Part shown: positions 4,505 through 50,178 of the stretch, one piece after another
Numbering within the stretch: the stretch's first letter is position 1
How the letters are laid out: every line of letters starts with the position of its first letter
Assembly (NCBI RefSeq): GCF_016862375.1
Contig: NZ_BOMV01000013.1
Coordinates: forward strand, 62,001 to 126,000
DNA: 64,000 bases
Direction: 5' to 3'
DNA from: Paractinoplanes rishiriensis
GTDB taxonomy: Bacteria; Actinomycetota; Actinomycetes; Mycobacteriales; Micromonosporaceae
Program-made: the position numbers and the translations under genes
Notes under the pieces: model-generated
Told to the model about the DNA's origin: nothing
Database searches by the model: none
What the model saw: only the letters and a program-made list of their open reading frames with translations

Positions 4505-4508
4505 ACCC

Positions 4509-5471: not shown

Positions 5472-5472
5472 G

Positions 5473-12027: not shown

Positions 12028-12037
12028 CGGGTGGTCC

Positions 12038-12265: not shown

Positions 12266-13010
12266 GGTTCCTCCGCAGCTGGGTTCGGAAGGTCAGGCGG
12301 TCGCCGCGGAACCGGATCCACTCCAGGTCGACCGGGCGGCCGTCGGCCAGGTGGGTGAGCCGCTCGACCATGAGCAGCGCGGCCCGGTCGGCGACGTCGA
12401 GCAGGGCGGCCGAGTGCGGGTCGGCGTTGACCGCCTCGACGCTGATGTCGGCCGAGCCCAGGGGCTGGCCGGTGAGCTGCTCGATCAGCACGAAGATGTC
12501 GCGGTGGGCGAGGTCCTCGCCGAGCAGCGGGGCGCCGATGTCATGCGGCAGGTAGGTGAGGTCGAGCGACACCGCCACCCCGTCGAGGCGGCGGACCCGC
12601 TCCAGGTAGACCACCGGCTCGTCGCCGGGGATCCGCAGCCGCCGGGCGACCAGCGCGGGCGGGCGGATCACGGTGCTGGTCCGGACCTCGTTGGTGATCT
12701 CGCCGTGCTGGTGCAGGGTCTCGGCGAGGCCGGCCAGGTGGTGCAGGCCGTGCGCGTACTTCGCGGTGACCACCGTGGTGCCGACCCCGGGCAGCCGCTC
12801 CACCAGCCCCTCGGCGGCGAGCAGGCCGAGCGCGGCGCGCACGGTGTTGCGGGACACCTCGAACTCGGCGCAGAGCAGGCCCTCGCGGGGCAGGTGGCCG
12901 GCCGGGTACGCACCGGTGAGCACCTGATGGCGCAGGACGTCGGCAACCTGGCGGGCCCGGTCGGCCCGCCGCCGGCGCGCGTCGGCCAGCGCGGCCGGGT
13001 CCTTCGTCAT
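12222..13010 (-). CDS. GntR family regulator, HutC/UTRA type
   Basis: A 262-aa regulator. Residues about 15-85 are the GntR winged helix (GHLPREGLLCAEFEVSRNTVRAALGLLAAEGLVERLPGVGTTV), and about 100-245 a UTRA ligand domain (VVYLERVRRLDGVAVSLDLTYLP, FVLIEQ). It heads a six-gene leftward operon of ferredoxin, binding protein, permease, ATPase and flavoprotein. A perfect inverted repeat lies 8 bp in front of its start codon, so it probably represses its own operon and is released by the imported compound or a product. Confidence 0.9.
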   Translation of the reverse strand: MTKDPAALADARRRRADRARQVADVLRHQVLTGAYPAGHLPREGLLCAEFEVSRNTVRAALGLLAAEGLVERLPGVGTTVVTAKYAHGLHHLAGLAETLHQHGEITNEVRTSTVIRPPALVARRLRIPGDEPVVYLERVRRLDGVAVSLDLTYLPHDIGAPLLGEDLAHRDIFVLIEQLTGQPLGSADISVEAVNADPHSAALLDVADRAALLMVERLTHLADGRPVDLEWIRFRGDRLTFRTQLRRNHAPGQPADRRAGNH

Positions 13011-14933: not shown

Positions 14934-14945
14934 GTCCTCAACTGT

Positions 14946-14988
14946 GCCTCCCGGCGGCCGACAGACAGGGTGTCGACCGCCGGGAGGC
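14946..14988 (+). terminator. terminator between protease and GGDEF-EAL genes
   Basis: gcctcccggcggccgaca (14946-14963) pairs with tgtcgaccgccgggaggc (14971-14988) at 17 of 18 positions around a 7-nt loop. It starts 13 bp after the protease stop. There is no T-run, as is common in actinomycetes. Confidence 0.75.
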
Positions 14989-15018
14989 CGAGGACTCTCC
15001 GCCGAGAAGAGGGACGAA

Positions 15019-17451
15019 ATGAAGGCCGCTGCCCGTGTTGCCGGACTGACCGCCATGCTGGCGGCGGTCTCGGTCGCCGTGCAGTTGCACTGGTTCTCCG
15101 GCATGCGGCCGGTGACCGGTCGCGACCTGATCGTGGCGGCCGTCCTCGCCGTCCTCTTCGTGCTGGTCGAGCGGTTCGTGGTGCAGTTGCCGGTACGCCG
15201 CGGCGCGCACACCCTGACGCTCAGCGAGATTCCCACGGTCATCGGGCTGGTGCTGCTGCCGCTCCCACTGCTGGCCGCCGCCCGGGTCCTCGGCGGCCTG
15301 GTCGGGCTGGCCGCGCTGCACCGGCAGCCGGTCGGCAAGATGGCCTTCAACCTCGCCCTCTACCTCACCCAGGTGACCGTCGCGGGCCTCGTCGTCTCGG
15401 CGGTGGCCCACGGCGCCGACCCGCTGAGCCCGCTGGGCTGGGCCGGCGTGTTCGTCGGCACGTTCGCCGCCGACCTGGTGTCGATCGTGGCGATCACCGC
15501 GGTGATCGCGATGCACGACGGCTCGCAGCAGTGGTGGCGGATGCTCAGCTCGGACGTCAAGGAACTGCTCCAGGTGCCGGTCGTGCTGCTGACCACCACC
15601 CTCGGCCTGGTCACCGCGATCGTGAGCCGCGAGCAGTGGCCGGCGCTGGCGCTGCTCGCCATCCTGGCCGTGGTGATCTACCGGGTGCTGGCCGCGTACT
15701 GGCAGCAGACCCAGGGGCACGCCCAGGTGGAGGCCCTCTACGGGTTCACCCGGTCGCTGAACGGCTCGGCCCACCCCGACGAGGTGGCCCGCGTGGTGCT
15801 CGACCGGGCCCGCGAACTGGTCCGCGCCGACGAGGCCGAACTGCTGCTGGACGGCGGCGCCGGCCTGGTACGGATGCGGCTGGCCGGCCGGGACGAGTTC
15901 TCGTCGGGCGCCACCACCCACCACCCGGACGCATGGTGGGCGCCGGCCCGCGACGGCCGGGCCGTGCTGATCCCGGAGACCGGCATGGCGGTCCCGGTCG
16001 CCCTCGACGACTCCACCGGCGTGCTGCTGGTGCGCGAGCCGATGGCCGACATCGCCGGCTTCACGGCGGAGCACCACCGGCTGCTCGAGGCCGTCGCGGC
16101 GCACGCCGGCGTGACCCTCACCAACGCCCACCTGCTCGACCGGCTGCGCCAGATCGGCCTGCACGACGCCCTCACCGGCCTGCCCAACCGCCGCTTGGTG
16201 CTGGACGACCTGCGGGAGGCGCTGGAGCGGCGGCCGGAGACCGGCGTGGTCGGCGTGCTGCTGCTCGACCTCGACCGGTTCCAGGAGATCAACGACGCGC
16301 TCGGCCACGTGGTCGGCGACAGCGTGCTGCGCGAGGTCGGCTCCCGGCTCCAGCACCTGTTCGGCGAGCGGGCCACCGTGGGCCGCCTGGGCGGCGACGA
16401 GTTCGCGCTGGTGATCCCGTCGGCGGCCAGCGCCGAGGCGGTCCTCGACCTGGCCTACGAGGTCTACCGGGCGGTGGTCGAGCCGATCGAGGTGGGCGAG
16501 CTGACCCTCAGCACCCCGGCCAGCATCGGCGTCTGTCTCGCGCCCGAGCACGGCAGCGACCCGGACACCCTGGTGCAGCGCGCCGACGTGGCCATGTACG
16601 CGGCCAAGAACGCGCGCGCCGGGGTCCGGGTCTACCAGGCCGAGGACGACCGGAACACGCCGCGCCGGCTGGCCCTGATGGCCGACCTGCGGGCCGCCGT
16701 CGAGCAGAACCGGCTCGAGGTGCACTACCAGCCCAAGGTCGACCCGGCGTCCGGCCGGGTGATCGGCGCCGAGGCGCTGAGCCGCTGGTTCCGCGCCGAC
16801 GGCACCGTGCCGCCGGACGAGTTCATCCTGCTCGCCGAGCGCTCCGGCCTGATCCGGACGCTGACCCGCAACGTGCTGGACACCGCGCTGGCGGCCTGCG
16901 CCGGGTGGCGCCGGGACGGTCACCACGACATGACCGTGGCGGTCAACCTGTCGCCGCAGACGATTGCCGACCGCGGCCTGGCCGAGGACGTCCGGGTGGC
17001 GCTGCTGCGGCACGGGCTGCCGGCCGCCGCGCTGACCCTGGAGATCACCGAGACCGGCCTGATGGCGGACCCGACCAACAGCCTCGCCACCCTGGAGACG
17101 CTGCGCGGCATCGGCGTGAAGCTCTCGGTCGACGACTTCGGCACCGGGCACTCGTCCCTGGGCCGGCTGTCCGAACTGCCGATCCAGGAAGTCAAGATCG
17201 ACAAGGGCTTCGTCCGCGACCTGACGACCACGGCGGGCCGGCGCGCGGTCACCGACGCCACCCTGCACCTGGGCCGTGCCCTCGACCTCCTGGTCGTGGC
17301 CGAGGGCGTGGAGACCCGCGAGGAGTTCGACTACCTGCGCGCCCACGGCTGCGGTGCGGTGCAGGGTTACTACGTGTCCCGGCCGCTGCCGGCCGCCGCG
17401 TTCACCGCCTGGCTGGCCGACCGGCCGGCGCGCAGCTACCTGGCTGCCTGA
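15019..17451 (+). CDS. membrane GGDEF-EAL protein (cyclic-di-GMP turnover) with GAF domain
   Basis: An 810-aa protein. Residues 1-215 hold about six membrane helices (MASE-like, LTLSEIPTVIGLVLLPLPLLAAARVLGGL). About 235-375 is a GAF domain, about 378-540 a diguanylate cyclase domain with an intact GGDEF (458-462), and about 555-800 a phosphodiesterase domain with EAL at 585-587, DDFGTG, KIDKGFV and AEGVET, all kept. Both active sites look functional, so the net direction is not predictable. The start is ATG 15019 after gaagaggga; the longer frame from 14944 would cover the terminator. It overlaps the P-loop/TPR gene tail to tail by 16 bp. A paralogue lies at 48147-50159. Confidence 0.92.
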   Translation: MKAAARVAGLTAMLAAVSVAVQLHWFSGMRPVTGRDLIVAAVLAVLFVLVERFVVQLPVRRGAHTLTLSEIPTVIGLVLLPLPLLAAARVLGGLVGLAALHRQPVGKMAFNLALYLTQVTVAGLVVSAVAHGADPLSPLGWAGVFVGTFAADLVSIVAITAVIAMHDGSQQWWRMLSSDVKELLQVPVVLLTTTLGLVTAIVSREQWPALALLAILAVVIYRVLAAYWQQTQGHAQVEALYGFTRSLNGSAHPDEVARVVLDRARELVRADEAELLLDGGAGLVRMRLAGRDEFSSGATTHHPDAWWAPARDGRAVLIPETGMAVPVALDDSTGVLLVREPMADIAGFTAEHHRLLEAVAAHAGVTLTNAHLLDRLRQIGLHDALTGLPNRRLVLDDLREALERRPETGVVGVLLLDLDRFQEINDALGHVVGDSVLREVGSRLQHLFGERATVGRLGGDEFALVIPSAASAEAVLDLAYEVYRAVVEPIEVGELTLSTPASIGVCLAPEHGSDPDTLVQRADVAMYAAKNARAGVRVYQAEDDRNTPRRLALMADLRAAVEQNRLEVHYQPKVDPASGRVIGAEALSRWFRADGTVPPDEFILLAERSGLIRTLTRNVLDTALAACAGWRRDGHHDMTVAVNLSPQTIADRGLAEDVRVALLRHGLPAAALTLEITETGLMADPTNSLATLETLRGIGVKLSVDDFGTGHSSLGRLSELPIQEVKIDKGFVRDLTTTAGRRAVTDATLHLGRALDLLVVAEGVETREEFDYLRAHGCGAVQGYYVSRPLPAAAFTAWLADRPARSYLAA

Positions 17452-37078: not shown

Positions 37079-38751
37079 CTACTCCGCATAGTCCGTGCCG
37101 TTCCAGCGCTGGACGGCCCGCCGGACGGTGCCCTCGGCGCAGGACGGATTGCAGTCGTTGGCCGTCGTCTCCACCTCGTACCGGCCGTCGCCGTCGGCGT
37201 CCAGGACCTCGGCACCGTAGAAGCGGGCCGAGTAGTCGCCGGGTCGCGGCAGGGTGCGCAGGTCCTCGAAACCGCCGGCGGTGGGACGCAGAATGATGAC
37301 GCCGTTGTGCCGACCGGGGTTGTAGTTGAGGAACAGGTGACCGGTGGAGTCCGTGGCCGGCGCGGCCGGTTCGAGGACGTACCAGTCGCCACCCCAATGG
37401 CTCCACCGCACCTTGCGCTGGGCGTCCAGGACGGCGATGGCCGCGTCCCGCTTCTCGTCGCCCCGGGCCAGGGTGGTCACCAGGGTGACCGGTCCCCACG
37501 CCGGATGCCGGAACTCGACCCGTCCGCTGATCTTGCACGCCAGTTTGCAGACGCCCGCCTGCCGCAGCAGGGCCGCGTCGATCGGCGGCGCCGCGGGACT
37601 ACCCGTCGACCGGGGTTCGGGTCTGCCCGGCGCGACCACGACCTGCTGCACCCGGTCGGCCAGCCGCCGGACGCCCGCCGCGTCCTTGCGGGACAACCGG
37701 GACTCACCCTGCTGGCTGCGGTGCTCCAGCAGCAGGCGGGCGTCGCCGACCGGGCGGACCGCCTCGGCAGTGGTCCGGTCGGCCGGCGTCCAGCTGCCGC
37801 CGGTCAGCTGCCAGAGCGTGGGCGGGGCGGTCATCTCCTCGTCCAGGGCGTCGGTGCACCGGTGCGACGAGATGCTGGCGTTCAGCACGCCGGCGTCGTC
37901 CCACCACCAGTCGGTGACCGTCATCCAGGCGTTCTCCTCGTCCGGGGCGCTCTGCACGAACGACGGCGGCTTGGTCGCGCGTCCGGTGGAGCCGTCGTAG
38001 ACCCAGTACGTGCCGCTGTTGCAGCGCCCGTCGTCGTCCGGCACGTGCACGCCGAACCGGGGGTGCCGTCCGGGCCGGTGCCGCCGACCGCGGACGAGCC
38101 CACGATCATCGCGTGCTCGGCGACCTTGCGCGCGGCCGGCCGGCCGACCTGGACCGCGTAGAGCACGTCCGGGCTGCCGTAGTCCGGTGCGTCCTGGCCG
38201 GGATCGATGATCTGCCCGCGGACCAGCACCGAGTCGGCACCGCCCGCCATCACCTCCGTCGCCTGCCGGCCGCCGGGCAGGTCGAGCGCCAGCGGCTTCG
38301 CCTCGCCGGTGAACACGTCGAGGACGAACGCCTCCCGGGTGCCGGTGTCGACGTAGGCGATCCGGTCACCGCCCACCGGCGCGGCCGAGGCACAGGAGCA
38401 GCCGATGTGCTGGACCTTGCGGGTCTCGGTGTTGACCACGGTGAGAACCTGGTCGTCGGCGGTGCCCACGGCGGCCGCCACCACGAACGTGCCGGTACGG
38501 GTGTAGAACAATGCCCCGCCCCGGTATGCGCCGGGCTGGCGGAACTCCGTGCCGCCGGCGAGCTTGACGACCAGGTCGGTGGCGGTGGTGTAGGCGTACC
38601 CGCGCGGGCCCGCCGGCGGCGCGCTGCCCGGCGCCGTCACCGGATCGTCGCCGCGCCCCCGGACCACCAGGACGGCGACCGCGGCCAGCACCGCGACCAG
38701 AAGAACGGCGAGTGAGACCCCGAGCAGGCGGCGGGTGGCGGCGGCGGTCAC
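37079..38751 (-). pseudogene. frameshifted membrane-anchored propeller-like protein (last gene of protease operon)
   Basis: Two frames join into one protein of about 557 residues if one C is added to the C5 run (G5 on the given strand, 38059-38063). The N-terminal frame (GTG 38751) runs to VGGTGPDGTP; the C-terminal frame then gives RFGVHVPDDDGRCNSGTYWVYDG. A single membrane helix (about residues 10-34, LLGVSLAVLLVAVLAAVAVLVV) is followed by repeated beta-rich units and, near the end, a calcium-type LDADGDGRYEVE. This fits an external sensor or adaptor domain. The start overlaps the previous stop (GTGA). Real mutation, phase-variable homopolymer or sequencing error cannot be told apart here. 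No known family recognised. Confidence 0.7.
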
Positions 38752-41072
38752 GACAGGCTCCTCAAGGCGTCGGCGATGGTGGTCCGGATCGGGTCTCCGA
38801 ACAGGCGGTGACGTCCCATGCGCCGCCACTGGTCCAGCGCCGCCGGGCCGGCGACGAGGACCGACTGCCGCACGAGACCGGCGTACGAGATCTCCAGCAG
38901 GGCCGGGTCCGCGGCCCCGGCGATCCGGACCTCCGCGGTCGAACGCGGCAACGGCAGGTGGCCGCGCCCGGCCTGGTCCAGCGGCAGGAGGAGGTGCCGG
39001 TCACGCCCGCAGTCCAGGTGCACGAGCGCACCGGACAGCAGGGCCGGGCCGCTGAGTTCGAGGCGACCGCCGGCGGTCCGCACGGCGAACACCCCGGGCC
39101 GTTCGTCGGCGACGTCGGCCAGCAGATCCTGCGCGAATTCCGGGAGACGGGGCGGCCGGCTGGGCGGGAACGGGTCGAGCGGGTCCGGATGCAGCAGGTC
39201 GCCGTCGATCAGGTAGGCGACGTCCGGCCCGGCCGCGCGGAGCACCCGCAGCCAGGCCAGCCGGGTGCCGTTGTCCAGCGCCGCGGCGGTCGACGCCCGC
39301 AGCACCCCGGAATCCCAGACGTCCACCTCGCCGACCGGGACGGCGGCTCGGGCGGTGACCTCCCGGCCGGCCAGCGCAACCCGGGCGCCACGCTGGACCG
39401 GCAGCCACAGATTGAGCACGGCCCCCCGTTCGTCGGTGCACCGGACCGGCAGTACCGCAGTCCCGGTCGGCGCCGCCTCGATCTCCAGTTCGTATCCCTG
39501 CCGGCCGGCGTCGTGGCGGAGCCGCAGCTCGACGCCGTCGGGCGTGACGATCGTGGGCTCGGCGGAATCACCGGAACGCGTGTGCGCCGCCAGGGCCGGG
39601 AGGGGTGGTGGTTCCGGCAACCGGACGGCTGCGTCCGGGCGGGCCGCGGGTTGCCGGTGCCACCGCCACGGCGGGCCGGGCACGTCGATGAAGGTCGCAC
39701 GCCCGTAGCGGTCGAGCACCGCGCGCCGGGCCTCGTCGCCGGCCTCCAGACCGATGATGTCCCCGGCGAACGCCGACCGGTCGCCGTCCCGCATCAGCGC
39801 GACCTCGACCGCGAACCGGGAACCCGCGGCGCGGACCCGCAGCACGCCGGTCACGTCGCCGATCTGCGCGGTCACCTGGGAAACCGGTTCCTCGACCGTG
39901 ATCCGGTCCGCCATGGTGTCGAGGACCGGCAGCACCTCCCCGGTCTCGATACGCAGCTCCGGCTCCGGCGACCCGGGCGCCGGGAGCCGCAGGGCGTCCG
40001 GGGGCGTGCCGAGGACCGGGTGGCAGGCGACCTCGCCGGGCGACCGGGCCGGGAAGGTGACGGTCGGCGCGGCCAGGTCCGCCGTCGCCAGCAGGGTGTG
40101 CAGCTCCCGCCAGGCCCACGCGAGCTCGTCGGTGGCGTCGCTCCGCTCGGCGCGGGCCGCGCGCAGCAGGTCGGCCAGCAGGCGCAGCCCCGCCGTCCAG
40201 AGCGGCGGTCCGAGGCGCCAGGCGGCGAGGGTGAGCGACCGTACCGCTGCGGGGTCACCACCGGCACGGCTGAGGGCGGCCGCACCCACGATGGTCCAGT
40301 CGCAGCCGTCGCCCACCGGCCCGTCCGGCGCCGCGATGGTGCCGGGCGCGGTGAGATGGGCGTACGCGAGGGCCAGCCGGGCCTCGGGTCCCGGAGCGGC
40401 ACGCAGATGGTCGGCGAGCACCGCGGCGTGCCGGAGCCGGCCCGCGGTCAGGTAGGCCATCAGCGCGTCCGCGCCCGGGTCGGCGCCGGCCACGACGATC
40501 ACCGGCTGCGCCGCCGCACCGGCCCGGACCGTGCGTACCAGCACGTCGACCCGCGCGCCGGCCGGCAGCGACGCCATCCGCCACGCCGTCCCGGCGCCGC
40601 CGATCTGCACCAGCGACGACCCGGCCCGGCCCCGCACGTGCAGCGCGGTCGCCTCCACCGTGGTCAGCACCGGCGTCCGCACCGGGGTCCACTCATCCCC
40701 GGCGGCCGGGCGCTGCCACATGCGCAGCCACAGCCCGCCCGGGACCGTCCACGGGGTCCGCCGGGGCGGCACCAGCGTGGTCAGGGCGGCGCGCAGCATT
40801 CCGGGCGCCTCGCCCAGCGGACCGATGTCGATCTCCCGGTGGCCCGGGCTGCCGGGGCCCAGCGGAACGGTGCCGCCGAGGGAGTGGCCGGACGGCGTGT
40901 GCACCACCACCGTGGCGTGCGGCCCGCTCGGCCGCTCGAGATCGTGCCGCCGGCCGACCACCAGGACGGCCGTCGCGGTGTGCGCCATCTCCGCGTCGAA
41001 GATCTCCACGACGACCGGTACGCCCAGCGCGCCGCGCACCGGCGTGGTCAGCGTGACCCCCATCGTCGTCAT
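38748..41072 (-). CDS. 774-aa protein of unknown function in caspase operon
   Basis: I do not recognise this protein. Its N-terminal 200 residues are beta-rich (VTLTTPVRGALGVPVVVEIFDAE; ATAVLVVGRRHDLERPSG). About 215-330 is helical and TPR-like (DALMAYLTAGRLRHAAVLADHL). The remainder is again beta-rich with several repeats of an immunoglobulin-like feel (VRIAGAADPALLEISYAGL). There is no signal peptide, membrane helix or catalytic motif. It is coupled by 4-bp overlaps to the caspase gene before it and the membrane-anchored protein after it, which suggests a scaffold or substrate protein of that system. The start is ATG 41072, with ATG 41063 as an alternative. Confidence 0.75.
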   Translation of the reverse strand: MTTMGVTLTTPVRGALGVPVVVEIFDAEMAHTATAVLVVGRRHDLERPSGPHATVVVHTPSGHSLGGTVPLGPGSPGHREIDIGPLGEAPGMLRAALTTLVPPRRTPWTVPGGLWLRMWQRPAAGDEWTPVRTPVLTTVEATALHVRGRAGSSLVQIGGAGTAWRMASLPAGARVDVLVRTVRAGAAAQPVIVVAGADPGADALMAYLTAGRLRHAAVLADHLRAAPGPEARLALAYAHLTAPGTIAAPDGPVGDGCDWTIVGAAALSRAGGDPAAVRSLTLAAWRLGPPLWTAGLRLLADLLRAARAERSDATDELAWAWRELHTLLATADLAAPTVTFPARSPGEVACHPVLGTPPDALRLPAPGSPEPELRIETGEVLPVLDTMADRITVEEPVSQVTAQIGDVTGVLRVRAAGSRFAVEVALMRDGDRSAFAGDIIGLEAGDEARRAVLDRYGRATFIDVPGPPWRWHRQPAARPDAAVRLPEPPPLPALAAHTRSGDSAEPTIVTPDGVELRLRHDAGRQGYELEIEAAPTGTAVLPVRCTDERGAVLNLWLPVQRGARVALAGREVTARAAVPVGEVDVWDSGVLRASTAAALDNGTRLAWLRVLRAAGPDVAYLIDGDLLHPDPLDPFPPSRPPRLPEFAQDLLADVADERPGVFAVRTAGGRLELSGPALLSGALVHLDCGRDRHLLLPLDQAGRGHLPLPRSTAEVRIAGAADPALLEISYAGLVRQSVLVAGPAALDQWRRMGRHRLFGDPIRTTIADALRSLS

Positions 41073-42208
41073 GACACGACCCGCAGCGGCACCGTGCCGG
41101 TCCGCGGCACCACGTCCAGCTGTTCCTCGACCAGGGGGTAGCAACCGTCGGTGAAGGTGGCCTGCACCAGATGACTGCCGGCCACCGACCGCACCGGCCA
41201 CGGGCTCGGCTCCGGCACCGGGCGCTCGCGGCGAAGGTCCGGTCGCCGGTGCCGTTCGCAGACGAAACTGGCCCGGCAGTGCGCCACGTCCGGAATGCAG
41301 CTGACCGTGAACAGCACCGGTGGCGGTTCGGCCAGCCGCCACAGCGGTGCGTCGCCGAGCAGGCCGCTCTGCAGCAGCACCTGGTCGCCGTCGCCGCGGT
41401 CATGGTTGACCAACTGGGTCATCGCCTCGTACAGGTGCCCGGTGGTGACCAGCCAGTCGGTGCCGTGCCGGCTGGCGGCGTGGCCGTCGAACGCGCCCAG
41501 CAGGGCGCGGGTGTAGTGCGAGACCTCGCCGGGCCGGCTCGCGGCCTCGCCGTACGGCGGGCTGGCCAGAATCGTGACGGTGTTGCCGGCGGCGTCCCCG
41601 GTGAGCCGCCCGGCCGGGCTGGCCAGGCCCCGCACCTCACTCTGCTGGTACATCGCGAAGTACGGCGCCGGCGCGGCACACGAGTCGACGAAGAACGCCT
41701 GCGTCGCCGGGCCGCCGGACACGCAGGCGTCCCGGGTCGGCTCGAGGCTGAAGGCGCCGCCGAACGGATCGTCCTCGTTCTCGGCGAAGTCGCTGGTCAG
41801 CAGGATCCGGCGGGCATGGGCCTGCACGCCGTGCCCGCAGAAGTAGAACAGCGCGACGTTGTCCGGGCGGTTCTGCGCCCGCGCGCGCCAGGCGCGGTAC
41901 GCCGCCTTGACCGCCGCCAGGGTCGGCACGGCCGTTCCGGTCCCGGTCTCCGGATGCCGCGGGTGCGGCGACACCAGCAGCTCCACGCTGGCCAGTGGCG
42001 CGGTCCACCGTTCGTGCGGTCCCTTCACCAGCCACTCGGCGACCGCGACGGCGGACAACGGCGGCGAGGTCAGTTGAGCCAGCTCTCCGAAGAGGCTCGG
42101 ATCGGGGTGCGGGGCACCGGTGCCGCCGGGCAGGTGCGGATAGCCGCCCACACCGATGATCAGCGCGTGCGTGCCCGGACCCGGCACCGCCTGCTCGTAG
42201 TACGTCAT
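41069..42208 (-). CDS. caspase-family (C14/metacaspase-like) cysteine protease
   Basis: A 379-aa protein. Residues 10-260 are a caspase fold: beta1 THALIIGVGGYPHLPG, catalytic His126 in FYFCGHGVQ, catalytic Cys177 in AFFVDSCAAP, and an ILASPPYGEA strand after it. Residues about 300-379 form a small extra domain with two Cys pairs (FTVSCIPDVAHCRASFVC). Bacterial caspase-like proteases are often set off by an associated sensor and cut a partner protein to trigger death or signalling. Here the gene is joined by ATGA overlaps to an alpha/beta hydrolase gene upstream and the 774-aa protein gene downstream. Confidence 0.85.
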   Translation of the reverse strand: MTYYEQAVPGPGTHALIIGVGGYPHLPGGTGAPHPDPSLFGELAQLTSPPLSAVAVAEWLVKGPHERWTAPLASVELLVSPHPRHPETGTGTAVPTLAAVKAAYRAWRARAQNRPDNVALFYFCGHGVQAHARRILLTSDFAENEDDPFGGAFSLEPTRDACVSGGPATQAFFVDSCAAPAPYFAMYQQSEVRGLASPAGRLTGDAAGNTVTILASPPYGEAASRPGEVSHYTRALLGAFDGHAASRHGTDWLVTTGHLYEAMTQLVNHDRGDGDQVLLQSGLLGDAPLWRLAEPPPVLFTVSCIPDVAHCRASFVCERHRRPDLRRERPVPEPSPWPVRSVAGSHLVQATFTDGCYPLVEEQLDVVPRTGTVPLRVVS

Positions 42209-43383
42209 CGGGGTTCGCCGAGGCGGTGGGCGAGCCGCCGGAAGAAGCTCGGCCGCAGGAAGTACGCCGAATGCGACCGGATCAGCCCGCGGCCGGTCGA
42301 GTAGACGTAGTCCTCGGTCCCGTCGAAGATCCCCTCGGTCGCGAAGCTGAGCACGTCGCACGTGTCGAACACGTTGATCCACCGGCCGACCTGCTTCGGC
42401 CGGGGACTGCGGTGCGCCGGCGTGACCGCCCCCGGCGGCGGCTCGGTGACGGCCGGCAGCAGGCCCAGCTCGGCGAACAGCCCCACCTGCGACCCGACCG
42501 TCACCAACAGGTCGCAGGACAGGTCGGTACGCAGGTTGGACAGCAGGTCGAACACGATGTTGCCGCCCATGCTGTGCGCGACCACGACCACGTGCGGGTC
42601 GTCCGCGGAACACGCCCGGCGGGCCGCCTCCAGATCGGTCGCGACCGCCGCGGCGATCGGGCCGTCCGCGCCGTGCCGCTCCCGCTGGCGCAGGTAGGTC
42701 AGCACGTCACCGACGAATGTCGCGCTCTCCTCCTGCACCCGTCGCCGGACCAGGCCGGCGGCCGTCCGCGAGGCGAGCCGGCTGCCGGCGCTCTGCACCC
42801 GGTTCAGGCCCTCGCGCAGCAACGGCAGGCCGGTACCGCCGCCGAACCGCTCCGGTCCCGCGGGCTCGCCCGCCGCCCGGGCGGCCAGCAGGTTGAACAG
42901 GGCGAGGTCGTCACCCAGCCCGGTGAGGTCGTCCGGCTCGGTGCCGGCCGCCCAGTCGGCGGCCCGCTCCGCCCAGACGGCGAGGCGGTCGAAATCGGCG
43001 GCACCGGCCGACTCGACCGAGGCGGCGGCCGACCACAGCAGGTCGACGGCGCTCTCGGGGGATCGCCGGGCGGCGCCGAGCAGGGTGCGCGCGGCCGGCG
43101 GCGGGTCCTCCTCGGGCGCGTCCTCGGCGAGCAGCGCCTCGGCCTCCGCGGTCCCGCCGAACCGTTCCGCGACCGTGTCCAGCGAGGCGCCGTCCCACCG
43201 GAACCTCGCGGCCTGATCACCCCAGTACGGGTTCAGGATCCGCACCGCCTCCGGGTCGAGACCGGTAGCCGGTGCGAGAAATCGGCGGATCAATGCGGTG
43301 CGGGCGGCTACCCGGCGGTCGTACGGCCTTCCGCCGCCCCGCTCGCGGCGGGTGGCGACGCCGTGGACGAAGATGATCGGCAC
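42205..43383 (-). CDS. alpha/beta hydrolase, lipase-like
   Basis: A 392-aa protein opening with PIIFVHGVATR (oxyanion His-Gly) and with nucleophile Ser271 in VVVVAHSMGGNIVF (AHSxG in place of GxSxG). A later INVFDTCDVLSF carries a candidate acid Asp, and the conserved His may be in RSHSAYF. Between about 60 and 230 is a large helical insert (AAGTEPDDLTGLGDDLALFNLLAAR). It could be a phospholipase or esterase effector. The start is GTG 43383 behind aaggagg. It lies 18 bp after the Lon-like/WD40 gene and overlaps the caspase gene by 4 bp. Confidence 0.8.
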   Translation of the reverse strand: MPIIFVHGVATRRERGGGRPYDRRVAARTALIRRFLAPATGLDPEAVRILNPYWGDQAARFRWDGASLDTVAERFGGTAEAEALLAEDAPEEDPPPAARTLLGAARRSPESAVDLLWSAAASVESAGAADFDRLAVWAERAADWAAGTEPDDLTGLGDDLALFNLLAARAAGEPAGPERFGGGTGLPLLREGLNRVQSAGSRLASRTAAGLVRRRVQEESATFVGDVLTYLRQRERHGADGPIAAAVATDLEAARRACSADDPHVVVVAHSMGGNIVFDLLSNLRTDLSCDLLVTVGSQVGLFAELGLLPAVTEPPPGAVTPAHRSPRPKQVGRWINVFDTCDVLSFATEGIFDGTEDYVYSTGRGLIRSHSAYFLRPSFFRRLAHRLGEPR

Positions 43384-43401
43384 GGTTGCCAGCCTCCTTC
43401 C

Positions 43402-46400
43402 TCAACGTGGTTGATCGTCGGCCGTGGTGGGTCTGCGGCCGTGTTCGGTCCAGCGGCCCGCGGCGTCGCGGCGTAGCTCGTACGTGATCCAGGAATCCGG
43501 TCCGGCGATCTCCTGCCAGATCTGGATGCCGAAGTCGGTGGGCCGGGCGGCCGCGACCGCCGGCAGCGTGCGCTCGAGGGCGCCGTCGGTGACCAGATCG
43601 AGCGCGGTGCCGTTGACGGCACCGGCTCGCCGGTGCCCGACGGCGATGCTGCGCAGACCCTCCGGGCCGATCGGGTAGGCGTAGACGTCCACGCCGGCCC
43701 AGCCGTCCGCGGTCCGCAGCACCGGCCGCCACCCGGCACCGTCCACGGTGCCCTGATAGAGGACCAGCCGGTGTGCGAAGTTGCCGGCGTCCGCCGGCAC
43801 CGCCGGCCCGGGCACGTCCGTCCACGCGTAATCGTGCTCACCGCCGAGCAGGACGTCGCATCGGCCGCCCTCGGTGAGCAGCGAGTCGCACCCGGAGCTG
43901 ATCCGGTCCTGGACCGGGCCGGTCGCGGGGACCAGCACGGCGCCCGGTGCGGCGGAGGGACCGCCCGAGGTGGCCGGCGCCGGCCGGGCCGCCGGGCACT
44001 GCCGGTGCGGCTCGGCCCGCGCGTCGCCGCTGTACTGCCGGACCTCGTCGGCGGTCAGCTCGCGTCCGCCGAGGCGGCACGCCTGCTCGACGAGATGGCC
44101 GGTACCGAACTGCCACAGCTGCCCGGCGGGCGCGCCGTCCGGCGCCTGCGGCGGCCCATCCTGATCCAGTACCGCGGCGACGGTGTCGGGGCCGCCCGGG
44201 GCGAGCCGGAGCACCGGCCGTTCCGAACGGGCGGTGACCAGCCGTTCCATGGTCCGCGGGTCGAGCAGGACCAGGTTCTGGTCGGCGGCCGCCACGACAC
44301 GGCCGCCGATCGCCTCGGCCGCGACGGCGCGGACCGTGCTGCCGATGGTCACGGCGGGCGTGAGGGGCTTCAGGTCGGGGGAGTATGTGCGGACGCTGCC
44401 GTCCGCGCCGCCCACCACGAGCCGTCCGTCGGTCACCGCCAGGCCGGTCACTCCGCCCCGGTTGGCGTGCACGGTGACCGGCTGGTCCAGGTTGTCGACC
44501 GGACCCGAGGTCAGGGTACCCACGGCGTCGGCGACCTCGGCCGGCCGGCCGCCGATCACGAGCCGGTCCCCGAGCCGGGCGAAGGAGGTCACCTGCGCGG
44601 CCGGAACGCTGGTCTGGGTGAGGACGTCCCAGGTCGCCGGGTCCCAGACCTGCACCAGCCCGGACTTGCAGCCGACCGCGAGCCGGGCCGGCGTGCCGGA
44701 CAGGAAGGCGACCGCCGTGACACCCTCACAGGCCGCGAGCCGGTGGTCCTGGTCCGGCAGCGGGACACTCGCCATCGTGGTGCGGTCGTAGGCGACGATC
44801 GGCTGCGGGGTGTCGCCCTCCTGGTCGGCGACGACGATCACCGGCACGTCCGGCGTGCGGGGGACCGCGAGCAGGCCGGAGAGGGCGCTCAGCGGGTTGT
44901 CCGGCGCGGTCCGGCCGCCGCCGGCCAGCCGGACCAGTTGCCCGTAGTTGCCGAGGACGTACTGGACGCCGGCCTCGTCGACGCCGACGTCGTCGAGCCG
45001 GCCGATGCCGAGGGTGCGCACCAGCGGCCGGCGCTGGTGCTCCCACACCCGGATGCCGCCGCCGAGCACCGGGGTGACGATGCCGCCCGGGTACACGGCC
45101 GAGCCGGGCAGGGTTTCGCCGTACGTGTCGGCGGCGTGCAGGAACTGCAGGTACAGCAGAGCGTCGTAGTACAGCAGGTGGGTCCGGTTCGACTGACCTG
45201 CGGCCACCGTCGTCCCGTGCACCGCCAGGGTCCGCACCGGTCCGGACAGTCCCGCAGCCGGGAACCGGTCACTCTCCTCCCGGGTGACCGGATTCCAGTC
45301 TGCCAGGCCCTCCTCCGATCCGATGAGGAGCAGGTGGCGGGTTTCGCGGGAGTCCCGTCCCGGGCCCGGCACCACCGCGAGCGACCAGACCGCGCCACGG
45401 TTCGGCAGGGCGATCCGGGCCGCCGTACGCCGCCGGTAGTCGACGGTGAGGACCAGCCCGGACGCCGTTCCGGCGTAGAGCGCGCCGGCCGGGCCGAAGG
45501 CGACCGCAGGAATCGCCGCCGGATCGGTCCGCAGGGCGGTGTGCGGTTGGAACTCGGCGACCAGCGCGCCGGTGGCCGCGTTCGAGACCCAGACCCAGCC
45601 CTCCTCGTCCGAGGCCGCAAGGAGCGCGCCGTCCGGGCTGTACGCGACCGACCGGACCGCACCCTGGTGGCGCCCGCCCGCGGTGGTCCGGTCCGGGATG
45701 ATCCGCCGGTTGGACAGCCGCCAGAGCCGGACGTCCCCGTCGGCGCCGGCCGAGGCGAACGCGGACGGCTCGGCCGGGTTCACCGCGATCGCCGTGACGG
45801 CGCCGTCGCTCGCCCGGCCCTGGCGGGACCCGACGGTGCGCCGGCTCACGTCGGCCGCGAACAGCAGGCCGTCCTCGGTGCCGGCCAGGATCGTCTCGGC
45901 GCCACCGGCCTGGGCGGGCGCGACCGCGGTCGCGGTGACCCGCTGATTGTTGCCGGTGACCACGCCGGCGTAGTGTCCGTTGTCGGCCAGCTGCTGGATG
46001 AGCTCCTCGGCTGCGGCCGCCCGCCCGGCCCGGTCCGGTGCCTGTCCGAGGGCCTGCGCCGCGAGCAGGGCAGCCAGTGCCGGATCACGATCCCGCAGGT
46101 CCCGGGCCGCGCCGGTCAGCCGGGCCGCGATCTTCTCCTGCCGGGCGGTTTCCGCGCGCTCGCCGAGCACCGTGTACACCGTGCCGGAGGCGAGCACGGC
46201 GAGCACCGCCGCCGTGCCCGCCCCGATCGCGATCCGCCGGTAGGCGCGCGGCCACTGGGTGGCCCGCCGGTGCGCCGCGCCAACCGAGTCGACCCAGTGC
46301 GGTTCCGATCGGCGCGGCACCTTGGCAGCCTCGGCCTGGTTGGCCCGGGGCAGGATCGGATCGAGGTGCTGGCGCACCGCGGCGGTCAGCTTGGCGCCGA

Positions 46401-47319
46401 TCCCGCCGACCTCGGTGATCGCGCCACCGTCGGTGATCGCGCCGGTCAGTGCGACCCGCCCGCGCAGCGTGCGGGCGGCGGCGACCCGCCCGCGCAGCCC
46501 GCCGGGGCGCTCTCGCTGCCGGCGCAGCTCGGTGAGCAGGACGCCGAACGCCGCGCCGGCCGACTCGCCGGACACCGCGGCGACCGGGCTGCCGTCGTCC
46601 GGTTCAGTCGCGGTCATCCGCCACAGCACGCACGGCTGCCCGGGGCCGTCGCCGAAGGTGGCCGCCCAGGCGTGGTCGAGCGAGGCCGGGAAGCCGCCGC
46701 TGCCGTGGAAGAAGCTCATGTAGCGCGGGTCCGGGAAGAGCCCGCCGGGGCCGTCGGCGAGCCGGACCAGTTCCAGGCGGCCGACCGCGCCCTCGATCTC
46801 GGCACCGACCGGGTTGGCGTCGAACAGCACATGGGTGACCAGCGGCTTTCCCTGGTCTTCACCCGCGCCGTGCAGCATCGCCATGGTCAGCGCCGCCATC
46901 GTCCGCGGCCCGCTGTCGGGTCGCTGGATCAGCAGGGCCATCGCGGCGAACAGACCGGGGTGGTCGGGCGCGATGGCGGACGGCCGGTCGTTGCGCGGTA
47001 ACCGCCTCGGCAGGCTGCCGCCCCGCCAGCGCCGGCACAGCGCGCCCAAATCCTCGGCCAGCAGCTCCGGGGCGGCGCCGCCGGCCGCCCGGGCCGCGGC
47101 CAGCAGGACGGTCGCGTCGTCCCTGATCCGTTCGCCGGTGGTGCGGGCCGCCAGCGCCGCGACGATCTCGGCCGGCTCGCCGGAGACCAGCCACCCGGGA
47201 TCGGTACGGACTGCCTCCTCGAGCGCCCGCCACCACAGCCGGCCGCTGCCGAGCAGGCCGGCCACGGCATCCCGGCCCCGCGCCGCGGCGCGGAGCTCGT
47301 CCCGGGCATGGGTCGTCAC
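43402..47319 (-). CDS. Lon-like Ser/Lys protease - membrane helix - WD40 propeller fusion
   Basis: A 1305-aa protein heading a five-gene operon. Residues 1-110 are helical. About 115-325 look like the proteolytic domain of Lon (S16): a beta-rich entry, then VSGESAGAAFGVLLTEL with the nucleophile pattern GxSAG (Ser253), and RVALTGAITDGGAITEVGGIGAKLTAAV with the general-base Lys310, as in Lon's GxI...GGxxxKxxAA. The AAA module of Lon is absent. One membrane helix (about 362-385, IAIGAGTAAVLAVLASGTVYTVL) and a short coiled segment lead into WD40-type repeats (about 455-1090, e.g. DGDVRLWRLSNRR, PDGALLAASDEEGWVWV). The last 200 residues are a separate domain. A membrane-bound sensor protease is inferred. 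The start is GTG 47319. Confidence 0.8.
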   Translation of the reverse strand: MTTHARDELRAAARGRDAVAGLLGSGRLWWRALEEAVRTDPGWLVSGEPAEIVAALAARTTGERIRDDATVLLAAARAAGGAAPELLAEDLGALCRRWRGGSLPRRLPRNDRPSAIAPDHPGLFAAMALLIQRPDSGPRTMAALTMAMLHGAGEDQGKPLVTHVLFDANPVGAEIEGAVGRLELVRLADGPGGLFPDPRYMSFFHGSGGFPASLDHAWAATFGDGPGQPCVLWRMTATEPDDGSPVAAVSGESAGAAFGVLLTELRRQRERPGGLRGRVAAARTLRGRVALTGAITDGGAITEVGGIGAKLTAAVRQHLDPILPRANQAEAAKVPRRSEPHWVDSVGAAHRRATQWPRAYRRIAIGAGTAAVLAVLASGTVYTVLGERAETARQEKIAARLTGAARDLRDRDPALAALLAAQALGQAPDRAGRAAAAEELIQQLADNGHYAGVVTGNNQRVTATAVAPAQAGGAETILAGTEDGLLFAADVSRRTVGSRQGRASDGAVTAIAVNPAEPSAFASAGADGDVRLWRLSNRRIIPDRTTAGGRHQGAVRSVAYSPDGALLAASDEEGWVWVSNAATGALVAEFQPHTALRTDPAAIPAVAFGPAGALYAGTASGLVLTVDYRRRTAARIALPNRGAVWSLAVVPGPGRDSRETRHLLLIGSEEGLADWNPVTREESDRFPAAGLSGPVRTLAVHGTTVAAGQSNRTHLLYYDALLYLQFLHAADTYGETLPGSAVYPGGIVTPVLGGGIRVWEHQRRPLVRTLGIGRLDDVGVDEAGVQYVLGNYGQLVRLAGGGRTAPDNPLSALSGLLAVPRTPDVPVIVVADQEGDTPQPIVAYDRTTMASVPLPDQDHRLAACEGVTAVAFLSGTPARLAVGCKSGLVQVWDPATWDVLTQTSVPAAQVTSFARLGDRLVIGGRPAEVADAVGTLTSGPVDNLDQPVTVHANRGGVTGLAVTDGRLVVGGADGSVRTYSPDLKPLTPAVTIGSTVRAVAAEAIGGRVVAAADQNLVLLDPRTMERLVTARSERPVLRLAPGGPDTVAAVLDQDGPPQAPDGAPAGQLWQFGTGHLVEQACRLGGRELTADEVRQYSGDARAEPHRQCPAARPAPATSGGPSAAPGAVLVPATGPVQDRISSGCDSLLTEGGRCDVLLGGEHDYAWTDVPGPAVPADAGNFAHRLVLYQGTVDGAGWRPVLRTADGWAGVDVYAYPIGPEGLRSIAVGHRRAGAVNGTALDLVTDGALERTLPAVAAARPTDFGIQIWQEIAGPDSWITYELRRDAAGRWTEHGRRPTTADDQPR

Positions 47320-47505
47320 CGGCGGCGTCCCAGCCGTCGCAGCGAACTGCGCCTAAGCGGACAAACCGGCCGGCCAGCGCTCGACGGCGAGATTCCGGAC
47401 ATCGCCGCCGATCATTGCGCCGCGCATCGGCGGCCACAAGGCGGTGGACGACGGTTCATCCGCCCGGCGGGTACCTTCGCATGATCAGCGCCGGACGCGC
47501 GCAGA

Positions 47506-48147
47506 TCATGCGATACCGGTCGTCCCGACGGCTCGGAAAGCTGGCCGGTTCGCGGTGCGGCCGCGGGCCCCGTGCCGGCGCTCGTACCCGGCCGGCGGGC
47601 GGTCCGCGTGCCGGGGCAGCGGGCGCACCGCCGACTTGCAGGTGCGCCACAGGAACAGCACGATGCCCACCCAGATCACCACGTCGCCGACGCTGAACAC
47701 GTTGTTGCCGGGCAGCCAGGCCGGGGTGGCGAAGACGTCGCCGAGCCAGGGCAGCTTCGGGTCGGCCAGCACCCCGGAGTTGGTGAAGTCGCCGGTCTCG
47801 GTGGCCCGGCCGACGGCGCGCAGCGCGGACTCCGAGGCCGGCAGCGTGCCGCCGTTCAGCGAGATGGTGAGCCCGTTGAGCCCGCCGCCGAAGCCGATCA
47901 GCAGGACGCCGGGCAGGTGCCGGTTGGCGATCACCCAGGCGCCGGCCATGACGTACGAGGCGATGTGCGCGACCGCCAGCGCGGTGGCGTCCGCGTCCGG
48001 CACCACGGAGATGACCAGGATCTGGTCGGCGAGCGCGGCCCACAGCAGCCAGACGTGCCGGATCCGGAGCGTGGCCAGCCGGGACAGCGGCGCGCGGAGC
48101 ACCGCCAGCACCAGCAGCGTGCCGACACAGAGGTAGACGGTCAGCAC
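47506..48147 (-). CDS. DUF5317 membrane protein
   Basis: A 213-aa protein with about five hydrophobic segments (VYLCVGTLLVLAVLRAPLSRLATLRIRHVWLLW at the start, VFSVGDVVIWVGIVLFLWRTC near the end). The pattern RAPLSRL, NxGxLPxS and AWLPGNNVFSVGDVVIWVG matches the DUF5317 family; its function is unknown. The GTG start shares one base with the stop of the GGDEF-EAL gene, so the two are coupled and may work together in cyclic-di-GMP signalling. It is followed by 186 bp before the protease operon. Confidence 0.8.
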   Translation of the reverse strand: MLTVYLCVGTLLVLAVLRAPLSRLATLRIRHVWLLWAALADQILVISVVPDADATALAVAHIASYVMAGAWVIANRHLPGVLLIGFGGGLNGLTISLNGGTLPASESALRAVGRATETGDFTNSGVLADPKLPWLGDVFATPAWLPGNNVFSVGDVVIWVGIVLFLWRTCKSAVRPLPRHADRPPAGYERRHGARGRTANRPAFRAVGTTGIA

Positions 48148-50159
48148 TACGCGACCGCCGGTTCGGCGGTGAGGGCGAGCTGGGCGGCGTACCACTGCTC
48201 CAGCTGGTCGGCGGGCATCGGGCGGGCCAGCAGGTAACCCTGCAGCATGGTGCAGCCCATGCCGGTCAGCACCGAGCGGCACTCGGTCGTCTCGACGCCC
48301 TCGGCCACCACGTTCAGGCCCAGGTTGTGCGCCAGGTCGATGATGGACTTGACCAGGGCGGCGCTGCGCACCGAGTCGACCGTGCCGGCCACGAACGACT
48401 GGTCGATCTTGATCTCGGTGACCGGCAGGTCGCGCAGGTGGGTGAACGACGAATAGCCGGTGCCGAAGTCGTCCATCGACAGACCGACGCCCATCTCGCG
48501 CAGCCGGCCCAGCACCGTTCGGGTCTGCGCCGGGTTGGCCATCAGTGAGCTCTCGGTGACCTCGACCACCAGCGCCTGGCTGGGCAGTCCGTGCAGGGCC
48601 AGGGCCGCCTCGATCTGGCGCGGCAGGTCCTCGCTGGCGACCTGGCGGGCGGTCAGGTTGATCGCGACGCTGATCGCCAGGCCGCGGTCCCGCCAGCCGC
48701 GCACGGCGGCCAGCGCGCTGTCGATGACGTGCGCGGTCAGCGGCACGACCAGCGGGGTGTTCTCCACGGCGGGCAGGAACCGGCCGGGCGGCAGCAGGCC
48801 GCGGGTCGGGTGCTGCCAGCGGACCAGGGCCTCGACCCCGATTAGCGCGCCGGTCAGCGCGTCGACCTTGGGCTGGTAGAACACCACCAGCTCGCCCTTG
48901 CCGAGGCCGCGCTGCAGCTCGCCGACCAGCACCGAGCTGGCCGTCGAGTGCTCCTCGGACTCGGGGTCGTAGAACGCGTGCCGGCCGCGCTCCTGCTTGG
49001 CCGCGTACAGCGCCAGGTCGGCGAGGTGCAGCAACTTCTCGGCGTCGACGGCGTGCTGCGGGGACAACGCCGCACCCACGCTGGCGGTCACGGTCAGCGA
49101 CATGTCGGCGATCCGGATCGGCTCGACGAACGCGGCCGCGGCCTCGCCGGCCAGCCGGTCGGTGGTGGCCGCGGTGGTGCGGTTCAGCACGATCGCGAAC
49201 TCGTCGCCGCCGAGCCGGGCCACCGTGCCGCGGGAGCCGGTGATCTCGGTGAGCCGCTGCGCGACCACCTTGAGCAGCTCGTCGCCGACCGAGTGGCCGA
49301 GCGTGTCGTTGATCTCCTTGAACCGGTCCAGGTCGATCATCAGTGCCGCGGTCTGCCGCTCCGGCGTCGCGTCGGCCATGCTCTCCCGCAGGCGCATCAG
49401 CAGCAGCGTGCGGTTCGGCAGCCCGGTGAGGGAGTCGTGCAGCGCGGCGATCTCGTGCCGGGTCGCGATCATGACGGCGGTCCGGATGGCCACGATGACC
49501 AGGACACACAACGGCGCGGTCCAGATCGAGAAGGCGAGGCTGGCCGCGATCATCGGCGAGACGCCGAGCACGATCGGGGTGACCGGGAACTCCTCGCGCA
49601 TGCTGGAGAGGATCGAGCGCGGCACGCCAGAGCCGGAGCTCAGCGCGAACGCCGTACCGGTCAGGATGTTGTTGACCAGGAAGTAGGCGACCGCGCCGCC
49701 GGCCAGGCCGATCAGCTGCTGTCCGGCCGGTACCCCGGTGATCGGGTCGCTGACGCCGACCCGCTCGATGGCGCAGATCGCCAGCCGGGCGGCGCCGAGC
49801 ATGAGGATGTTCTGGGCCACGTTGAAGGCGGCGACCCGCAGCGGCTTGCGCTCGCGGACCTCGACGACCAGCAGCGCGGCGATCGCCGGCAGCAGGGCGT
49901 AGACGAGCGGCCCGGTGTTCAGCAGCACCAGGGCGAACGCCCCGGACATCGTGTACTCCTGCGGGTTGCCCCGGCTCCACAGCCGCATCGGGAACAGCTC
50001 GCCGAGCACCAGCAGCACGGCCGCGACGGCCAGCACCGCTTGCAACTCGCCGTGCACCACCCAGCTGGCGGTGGCGAGCATCCAGCCGGCCGCGGCCGCC
50101 CCGGCTAGGTAGACCGCGCCAAGGTAGATTCGCAGCGGCATCTTTGACACCTTGGTCAC
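48147..50159 (-). CDS. membrane GGDEF-EAL protein (cyclic-di-GMP turnover)
   Basis: A 670-aa protein with 6-7 N-terminal membrane helices (about 10-230), then a diguanylate cyclase domain with GGDEF at 317-321 and a phosphodiesterase domain with EAL at 443-445, MDDFGTG, KIDQSFV and AEGVET. Both catalytic motifs are intact. It resembles the 15019 gene product in membrane and catalytic parts but lacks the GAF domain. GTG 50159, with gggag 5 bp before, is preferred; GTG 50165 and ATG 50141 are possible. A perfect hairpin and a 41-aa gene lie just upstream, and the DUF5317 gene follows directly. Confidence 0.92.
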   Translation of the reverse strand: MTKVSKMPLRIYLGAVYLAGAAAAGWMLATASWVVHGELQAVLAVAAVLLVLGELFPMRLWSRGNPQEYTMSGAFALVLLNTGPLVYALLPAIAALLVVEVRERKPLRVAAFNVAQNILMLGAARLAICAIERVGVSDPITGVPAGQQLIGLAGGAVAYFLVNNILTGTAFALSSGSGVPRSILSSMREEFPVTPIVLGVSPMIAASLAFSIWTAPLCVLVIVAIRTAVMIATRHEIAALHDSLTGLPNRTLLLMRLRESMADATPERQTAALMIDLDRFKEINDTLGHSVGDELLKVVAQRLTEITGSRGTVARLGGDEFAIVLNRTTAATTDRLAGEAAAAFVEPIRIADMSLTVTASVGAALSPQHAVDAEKLLHLADLALYAAKQERGRHAFYDPESEEHSTASSVLVGELQRGLGKGELVVFYQPKVDALTGALIGVEALVRWQHPTRGLLPPGRFLPAVENTPLVVPLTAHVIDSALAAVRGWRDRGLAISVAINLTARQVASEDLPRQIEAALALHGLPSQALVVEVTESSLMANPAQTRTVLGRLREMGVGLSMDDFGTGYSSFTHLRDLPVTEIKIDQSFVAGTVDSVRSAALVKSIIDLAHNLGLNVVAEGVETTECRSVLTGMGCTMLQGYLLARPMPADQLEQWYAAQLALTAEPAVA

Positions 50160-50178
50160 AGCCACTCCCGAGGAATGC

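Follow-up and report, generated by a model that had tools for sequence, protein, structure and literature searches.

In a stretch of 64,000 nucleotides from Paractinoplanes rishiriensis (contig NZ_BOMV01000013.1, positions 62,001 to 126,000; the window), a gene for a protein of 1305 residues was found in which a predicted Lon (S16) proteolytic domain without an AAA module is followed by a single predicted membrane helix and then by a WD40 propeller. Judged from its sequence and from a structural model, this protein is probably a membrane receptor-protease, its activity being predicted. With some reserve, we favour its interpretation as a membrane-anchored Ser-Lys Lon protease, lacking the AAA unfoldase and regulated by the WD40 propeller across the membrane, including the whole of the mechanism proposed below. 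The pairing of its family with caspase and alpha/beta-hydrolase genes or with CATRA and CATASP genes was recurrent. The features of the protein, in window coordinates, are as follows.

43402..47319, minus strand: Lon-transmembrane-WD40 protein, 1305 residues, open frame with a GTG start
46849..47319, minus strand: N-terminal helical region, residues 1–157, from the AlphaFold model
46255..46848, minus strand: predicted Lon (S16) proteolytic domain, residues 158–355, from Pfam, profile, model and overlay
46561..46563, minus strand: Ser253 (TCG), predicted catalytic serine
46444..46446, minus strand: Thr292, within RVALTGAI; Thr in 14 of 19 members, Val in 4, Ser in 1
46390..46392, minus strand: Lys310 (AAG), predicted catalytic lysine
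46177..46233, minus strand: single transmembrane helix, residues about 363–381, net charge +5 on the N-terminal side and 0 on the C-terminal side
43930..46002, minus strand: WD40 beta-propeller region, residues about 440–1130 (limits approximate, set by eye), with Pfam matches within 452–912

Evidence for a Lon Proteolytic Fold

The original prediction placed a Lon-type proteolytic domain at 46250–46990, which corresponds to residues about 110–357 of the 1305-residue protein. Comparison of the whole protein with Pfam gave a Lon_C match with an E-value of 4e-6 (27 bits; curated cut-off 21.1), and that of residues 1–355 by themselves gave 8.5e-7; in the latter Lon_C was the sole Pfam match at E up to 1, neither AAA, PDZ nor SAVED being found. 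Lon_C also matched seven of ten aligned family members (E up to 1). When residues 115–325 alone were used in a phmmer search against solved structures, a weak match to E. coli Lon was obtained (E 0.65). The window protein and nine relatives were aligned over their N-terminal parts, and the resulting 10-member profile, compared with the sequences of solved structures (E up to 10), gave 42 matches, all of them Lon proteases, the best with E 1.8e-6.

The AlphaFold model of residues 1–355 had a mean predicted local distance difference test (pLDDT) score of 82.8 and a predicted template modelling (pTM) score of 0.86. A Foldseek search with this model gave 298 matches, of which the best 50 were without exception chains of Lon or MtaLonC (lowest E 1.2e-7), and VIA-align overlay on E. 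coli Lon (1rr9_A) superimposed 165 residues of the region 158–355 with a Z-score of 20.2 and a root-mean-square deviation of 2.2; a fold unrelated to S16 did not appear. In the model, a helix at residues 255–269 follows Ser253 and another at residues 307–316 holds Lys310, an arrangement which we take to agree with the Lon layout.

Segment VSGESAGAAFGV contains Ser253, and segment ITEVGGIGAKLTAAV contains Lys310, 57 residues beyond it, with RVALTGAI in between; the Thr292 column of this motif is presumably that of the TGE threonine of Lon. The motif order and the distance were as originally predicted, and the dyad was kept in 19 of 21 family members. The Ser–Lys spacing is 43 in E. coli Lon, and it varied from 49 to 66 across the 11 members measured. 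Neither an AAA module nor a PDZ or SAVED domain was present in the whole protein among the Pfam matches listed (25 of 31 families in the case of AAA and PDZ), and the model of the ATP-dependent Lon, TIGR00763, scored 16.5 bits against a cut-off of 608. PADLOC and NCBIfam gave no specific family name for the protein. Because the profile, the predicted fold and the conservation described below agree, residues 158–355 are assigned as an S16 Lon proteolytic domain with a predicted Ser-Lys dyad and without the AAA module.

Topology and Propeller

The best hydrophobic 19-residue stretch followed the Lon domain in all 20 members examined, with a mean hydropathy of 1.73–2.85, and in the same 20 members the N-terminal flank of the helix was more positive than the C-terminal flank. 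Membrane orientation is commonly deduced from the positive-inside rule, and from the flank charges and this rule the Lon domain is predicted to be cytosolic, with 461–968 residues outside; the propeller thus probably faces outward and the Lon domain inward. WD40 or other propeller models matched all seven relatives tested, that at L064 weakly (E 8.4e-5). Altogether, the domain architecture claimed for this protein at the outset held: a Lon-type domain is upheld by Lon_C, the 42 profile matches, the overlay and the invariant columns, the missing motor by Pfam and TIGR00763, and the order of membrane helix and propeller by hydropathy and Pfam.

Distribution and Conservation of the Family

In the first search of relatives, six of 100 genomes, the own genome included, had a match. 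Two of these matches (genomes G066 and G083, loci L015 and L016) were LonA proteases, which were rejected as family members and kept for comparison; with them left out, the family was present, outside the own genome, in three of 99 relatives, each of the same genus. A profile search of 394 genomes of the class found eight, the own included, with a match below 1e-30, and the ten weaker matches examined were other Lon-type proteins. Eleven loci were obtained by scanning 84,980 species genomes with two short peptide patterns. Since the profile search was limited to the class of the window and was complemented by a peptide-pattern scan, the family may be wider.

The family as analysed consists of 21 distinct members: the window protein, L011, L013, L017–L027 and L059–L065, with duplicates counted once (L012 is L020, L014 is L025 and L058 is L018). 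L011 is a paralogue in the own genome of the window; L013, L020 and L025 belong to the same genus, two of the three being named Actinoplanes; nine others (L017–L019, L021–L024, L026 and L027) are from named species; and L059–L065 are seven members from the same class. In L026 (Streptomyces tropicalis; 9590–12856) both Ser and Lys were lost, the membrane helix being retained together with a long region downstream, and in L027 (Actinomadura sp. DC4; 10001–10519) a frameshift was located inside the Lon domain, past the PDP motif. L027 was omitted from the topology, column and tree sets, and L026 from the column and tree sets. In an alignment of the 19 remaining, diverged members, 16 of 259 columns (at least 17 letters each) were invariant, those of Ser and Lys included, and the median frequency of the commonest residue over the 259 columns was 0.41.

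Nine Lon proteins of 287–491 codons had GGPS[AG]G and IGG..K in the Ser253 and Lys310 columns; they are presumably of the YlbL type, judged by their length. With LonA-type proteins the family profile aligned the Lys side only. The nine YlbL-like proteins scored 35.4–40.4 bits with the family profile and three LonA-type proteins 28.1, 27.3 and 36.1 bits; as these scores show no clear preference, the idea that the family is nearer to the YlbL type than to LonA was dropped.

Genes at the Window Locus

Downstream of the gene for the Lon protein, the following genes run in the same direction.

42205..43383, minus strand: alpha/beta-hydrolase, 392 residues, HSMGG motif (Ser271); weak Pfam match to Abhydrolase_6 (E 5e-4, below cut-off)
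41069..42208, minus strand: caspase (Peptidase_C14), 379 residues, His126 (GHG) and Cys177 (DSC); Pfam E 1.2e-5, above cut-off
38748..41072, minus strand: p4, partner of 774 residues, with relatives at 8 of the 21 family loci
37079..38751, minus strand: last gene of the run, frame split near 38055

The caspase was also recognised by PADLOC (caspase, E 1.1e-10) and, below cut-off, by the NCBIfam model 'caspase, EACC1-associated'. The model of p4 was of low confidence and mostly beta (mean pLDDT 58.6, pTM 0.35). The last gene consists of two frames meeting near 38055, the corresponding halves at L017 being in one frame; the split reflects either an error in sequencing or a disrupted gene. A GGDEF-EAL gene (48147–50165, minus strand) is the immediate upstream neighbour of the Lon gene; an empty-site test through this flank found no close copy in 59 genus relatives (E 1e-200). 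Among the seven window genes tested by Pfam, from 37079 to 50165, none had CATRA, CATASP, MoxR, vWA or VMAP. The same genome has a separate locus with CATRA, CATASP and CHAT (L088, 4107–9914 of contig C76).

Neighbourhoods of the Family Loci

The 21 loci fell into five classes: four with hydrolase and caspase, four with a p4-related gene, four with a poly(A)-polymerase head gene, five with CATRA and four with no recognised neighbour of this kind among the few tested. The hydrolase-caspase pair was present in the window, L017, L019 and L022. The window and L017 (Micromonospora gifhornensis) share the order Lon protein, hydrolase, caspase, p4 and a further gene; at L019 (Virgisporangium) and L022 (Actinokineospora) the order is transglutaminase, beta-helix/PKD protein, hydrolase, caspase, p4 and Lon protein. 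When the 20 remaining family loci were scanned with two caspase profiles, only L017, L019 and L022 gave caspases, and a CHAT profile found no CHAT gene in the same 20 loci. What we take to be an IS3-type transposase pair lies at 1580–2787 of L017, some 7 kb upstream of the operon in Micromonospora.

The p4 genes of the window and L017 occupy the same slot as those of L019 and L022, from which they were unlinked by tblastn at E 1e-4. BLASTP gave E 3e-8 with 25% identity between the window and L019 and E 0.046 between the window and L022, and profile–profile comparison gave 98.2% with E 5.4e-14; on these sequence comparisons the genes are counted as distant relatives. Four more loci (L018, L020, L021 and L027) have a p4-related gene without a caspase. 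At L018 (8220–9923, minus strand) the p4-related domain is apparently fused to a region that by eye resembles a class III nucleotide cyclase, for which Pfam gave no cyclase match.

The poly(A)-polymerase head gene, accompanied by a partner gene, was identified by Pfam at L023 and by BLAST at L024, L063 and L064; the partner (434 residues in L023) had no Pfam match. The Lon proteins of this subclade (L023, 7160–9575; L024; L063; L064) have Val for the usual Thr. At the five CATRA loci, CATASP was recognised by Pfam at four and by a profile of our own making at all five, with gaps of 103–3145 bases at these loci, and EAD1 was found in all four CATRA family loci tested by Pfam (L059, L060, L062 and L065). 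Near the CATRA and Lon genes of L062 there is a Clp_N-domain gene and, farther off, a TIR_2 gene (4096–6117 and 14806–15297). TgpA-type transglutaminase genes lie near L019, L020, L022 and L065. Two small genes (217–223 and 112 residues) are directly upstream of the Lon protein in L011 (10990–11978) and L014 (10752–11758); three of these four genes were tested, and none had a Pfam family above cut-off.

When 19 Lon domains were placed in a tree, the loci with CATRA grouped in a single clade and those with the poly(A)-polymerase head gene in a different one; loci with the hydrolase-caspase pair appeared at two separate positions. Taken together, the neighbours suggest a connection with conflict (immune or cell-death) systems.

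Lon Protein and Caspase-Type Proteases at CATRA Loci

In 29 of the 394 class genomes, 41 genes matched CATRA-N with E-values of up to 1e-10, and the stretches around all 41 were read. The CHAT, CATRA, C14, CATASP and Lon-family profiles were built by ourselves from few sequences. In the stretches as first read, CHAT was present at 20 loci, C14 at six, the Lon protein at five and none of these at ten, several of the ten being cut by contig ends. The first C14 profile, which was based on caspases of the window type, failed to detect the C14 genes of six loci; a second profile, made from four of these genes after inspection, found those four and two more, so the C14 count was revised after the data had been seen. 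One of the ten (L108) had been read over 2000 bases, and its reading over 19,000 bases (L120) showed that CHAT is coded about 13 kb away from the CATRA gene, as compared with the about 9 kb used elsewhere; with L120, CHAT is present at 21 loci and none of the proteases at nine, and CHAT or C14 at 27 rather than 26.

No CHAT or C14 gene was found within the stretch read at any of the five Lon-bearing CATRA loci. The chance of this result, given 26 of 41, is 0.004 (0.003 with L120; 0.027 with CHAT alone), values which overstate independence because only four genomes, of two genera in one family, contributed the five Lon loci. All seven large genes at other CATRA/CATASP loci tested by Pfam coded for CHAT proteases, five of them with TPR-type repeats listed. 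At CATRA loci the Lon protein thus seems to take the place of the caspase-type protease. At L103 (2378–6160), an NB-ARC protein with an EAD1 domain is coded near the CATRA gene, and neither caspase nor Lon was found in the stretch.

Comparison with Known Systems

LonA, LonB and LonC share the S16 fold, the dyad and the motif order with the window protein but have an AAA+ module, and the Ser–Lys segment is longer in the window family. The Bacillus Lon-PDZ protein DdcP, which we take to be identical with YlbL, likewise has one membrane helix and a Ser-Lys dyad without AAA; it differs by its PDZ domain and a Lon domain proposed to lie outside, as compared with WD40 and a Lon domain predicted to lie inside here. 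The YlbL dyad, S234 and K279, is 45 residues apart; both residues are needed in the cell, where the protein acts on a division inhibitor, and no protease activity was shown by the protein purified without its membrane helix (PMC6051672). CalpL resembles the window protein in having a Lon domain, on the N-terminal side, fused to a sensor, in its activation by a signal and in its immune context, and its Lon domain is activated by oligomerisation driven by cyclic tetra-adenylate (cA4) (PMC11417357); its sensor, however, is a SAVED domain binding cA4, whereas the window protein has a membrane helix and WD40 and other neighbours. Given CalpL and DdcP/YlbL, a Lon protease without a motor is not unusual as such, and this ground for calling the protein unusual was rejected.

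According to Kaur et al. 2020, the caspases of VMAP conflict systems are invariably accompanied by a neighbouring alpha/beta-hydrolase (PMC7159879). The window and three relatives have such adjacent genes (the hydrolase below the Pfam cut-off) but differ from these systems in that no MoxR, vWA or VMAP was recognised among the window genes tested. With CATRA systems that use CHAT or C14 the family has in common that five relatives adjoin CATRA and CATASP genes; the protease at those five loci is Lon and not of the caspase type, and the window has a caspase and no CATRA that was found. Bacterial metacaspase-WD40 and metacaspase-NACHT-WD40 proteins (PMC3501461) also join a protease domain to WD40 repeats, but the protease is a caspase and one type contains a NACHT ATPase. 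The word Lon did not occur as a whole word in PMC7159879, PMC8195603, PMC10907252, PMC5587647 or PMC3501461, and no description of a Lon-transmembrane-WD40 protein, or of its combination with a caspase, was found in the literature searched, most subscription journals being outside it.

Proposed Mechanism

In the mechanism that we propose, the outward propeller would sense a signal, such as damage to the envelope, a ligand at the surface or a secreted partner. Binding of the signal would cluster or reorient the receptors in the membrane plane and bring the cytosolic Lon domains into an active arrangement without ATP, as oligomerisation does for CalpL; activation in a membrane context fits the reported inactivity of YlbL purified without its helix. 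The active domain would then make specific cuts in a protein that is already accessible, with no unfolding of the substrate. Since there is no unfoldase, the cleaved site would have to be exposed, and a defined activating cut is therefore more plausible than degradation. The cut could release or activate an adjacent effector, in the window the caspase and the alpha/beta-hydrolase; at CATRA loci the Lon protein itself may be the protease arm. The outcome would be dormancy or death of the infected cell.

A further version, in which the protein would be a bacterial death receptor, an outside signal sensed by the outward WD40 propeller turning on the cytosolic Lon domain to fire caspase and hydrolase in a cascade of two proteases or, in CATRA systems, to replace the caspase, is put forward tentatively, as a possibility to which we give limited credence. 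Two modes may exist, with Lon as the sole protease or as the upstream trigger of a caspase.

Several observations weigh against these proposals. The Thr292 column has Val in 4 and Ser in 1 of the 19 members, and L064 reads ESLSLGF where others have GxSxGAAF, which may mean reduced or absent activity in some relatives. The L059 protein matched the PADLOC candidate model HEAT-ARM_XIII (E 6.7e-38), with the best stretch in the WD40 part. No conflict-system gene was recognised at L011, L013, L025 and L026, where few neighbours, and at L026 none, were tested by Pfam. In addition, the Lon protein stands beside a caspase at four loci and in the usual place of the caspase at five; with both caspase-adjacent and caspase-replacing settings, one scheme may not fit all.

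Alternative Explanations

The protein could be a pseudoprotease, its Lon fold serving as a scaffold for a complex in which the neighbouring caspase or CATRA proteins act. The Lon-like domains of BrxL and ComM, which are not known to carry the dyad, also matched the model (Z 17.0–17.6), so that the fold alone is no proof of proteolysis, and L026 has retained its helix and downstream region after the loss of both residues. We consider this explanation rather improbable, as Ser and Lys are invariant in the other 19 intact members against the median frequency of 0.41. Of the caspase domains that occupy the vWA effector position in VMAP systems, about 70% are nevertheless said to be inactive (PMC7159879).

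A housekeeping role in the envelope, that of a signal-transducing or quality-control protease like DdcP/YlbL which trims a membrane protein, with incidental neighbours and no part in immunity, appears similarly unlikely. The family profile also finds YlbL-like Lon proteins (though with no clear preference over LonA), the division inhibitor on which YlbL acts (PMC6051672) would be a precedent, and four loci have the TgpA-type transglutaminase genes mentioned above. Against it stand the patchy distribution of the family, the linkage to caspase, CATRA, CATASP and EAD1 genes repeated in separate clades, and a topology predicted to be the opposite of the one proposed for DdcP. Finally, a chance resemblance of the Ser and Lys motifs in an unrelated domain, which the non-significant single-sequence structure search (E 0.65) and a spacing unlike that of Lon might have suggested, is contradicted and ruled out by the profile, the fold overlay and the invariant columns, and can hardly be credited.

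Conclusions

For the favoured reading, a Lon receptor-protease controlled across the membrane by its propeller, two elements are already known, namely Lon proteases without a motor coupled to a sensor and bacterial conflict systems with caspase-type proteases. As far as the literature searched shows, the Lon-transmembrane-WD40 architecture, its linkage to caspase and hydrolase genes and to CATRA, and its apparent exclusion from CHAT and C14 at CATRA loci are new. The literature consulted presents the conflict and cell-death systems of bacteria as built on proteases of the caspase type (C14, CHAT) and the trypsin type; a Lon protein in the slot of the caspase would show that this protease can be swapped for one of an unrelated fold. 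A receptor with sensor, membrane helix and predicted catalytic dyad in one chain is a testable system, and as a case of ATP-free regulation of Lon across a membrane it bears on what, besides the AAA ring, orders the Lon active site. If the death-receptor version is true, programmed death in bacteria would have in Lon a second and unrelated protease of the executioner type, with signals passing through the membrane from outside to inside.

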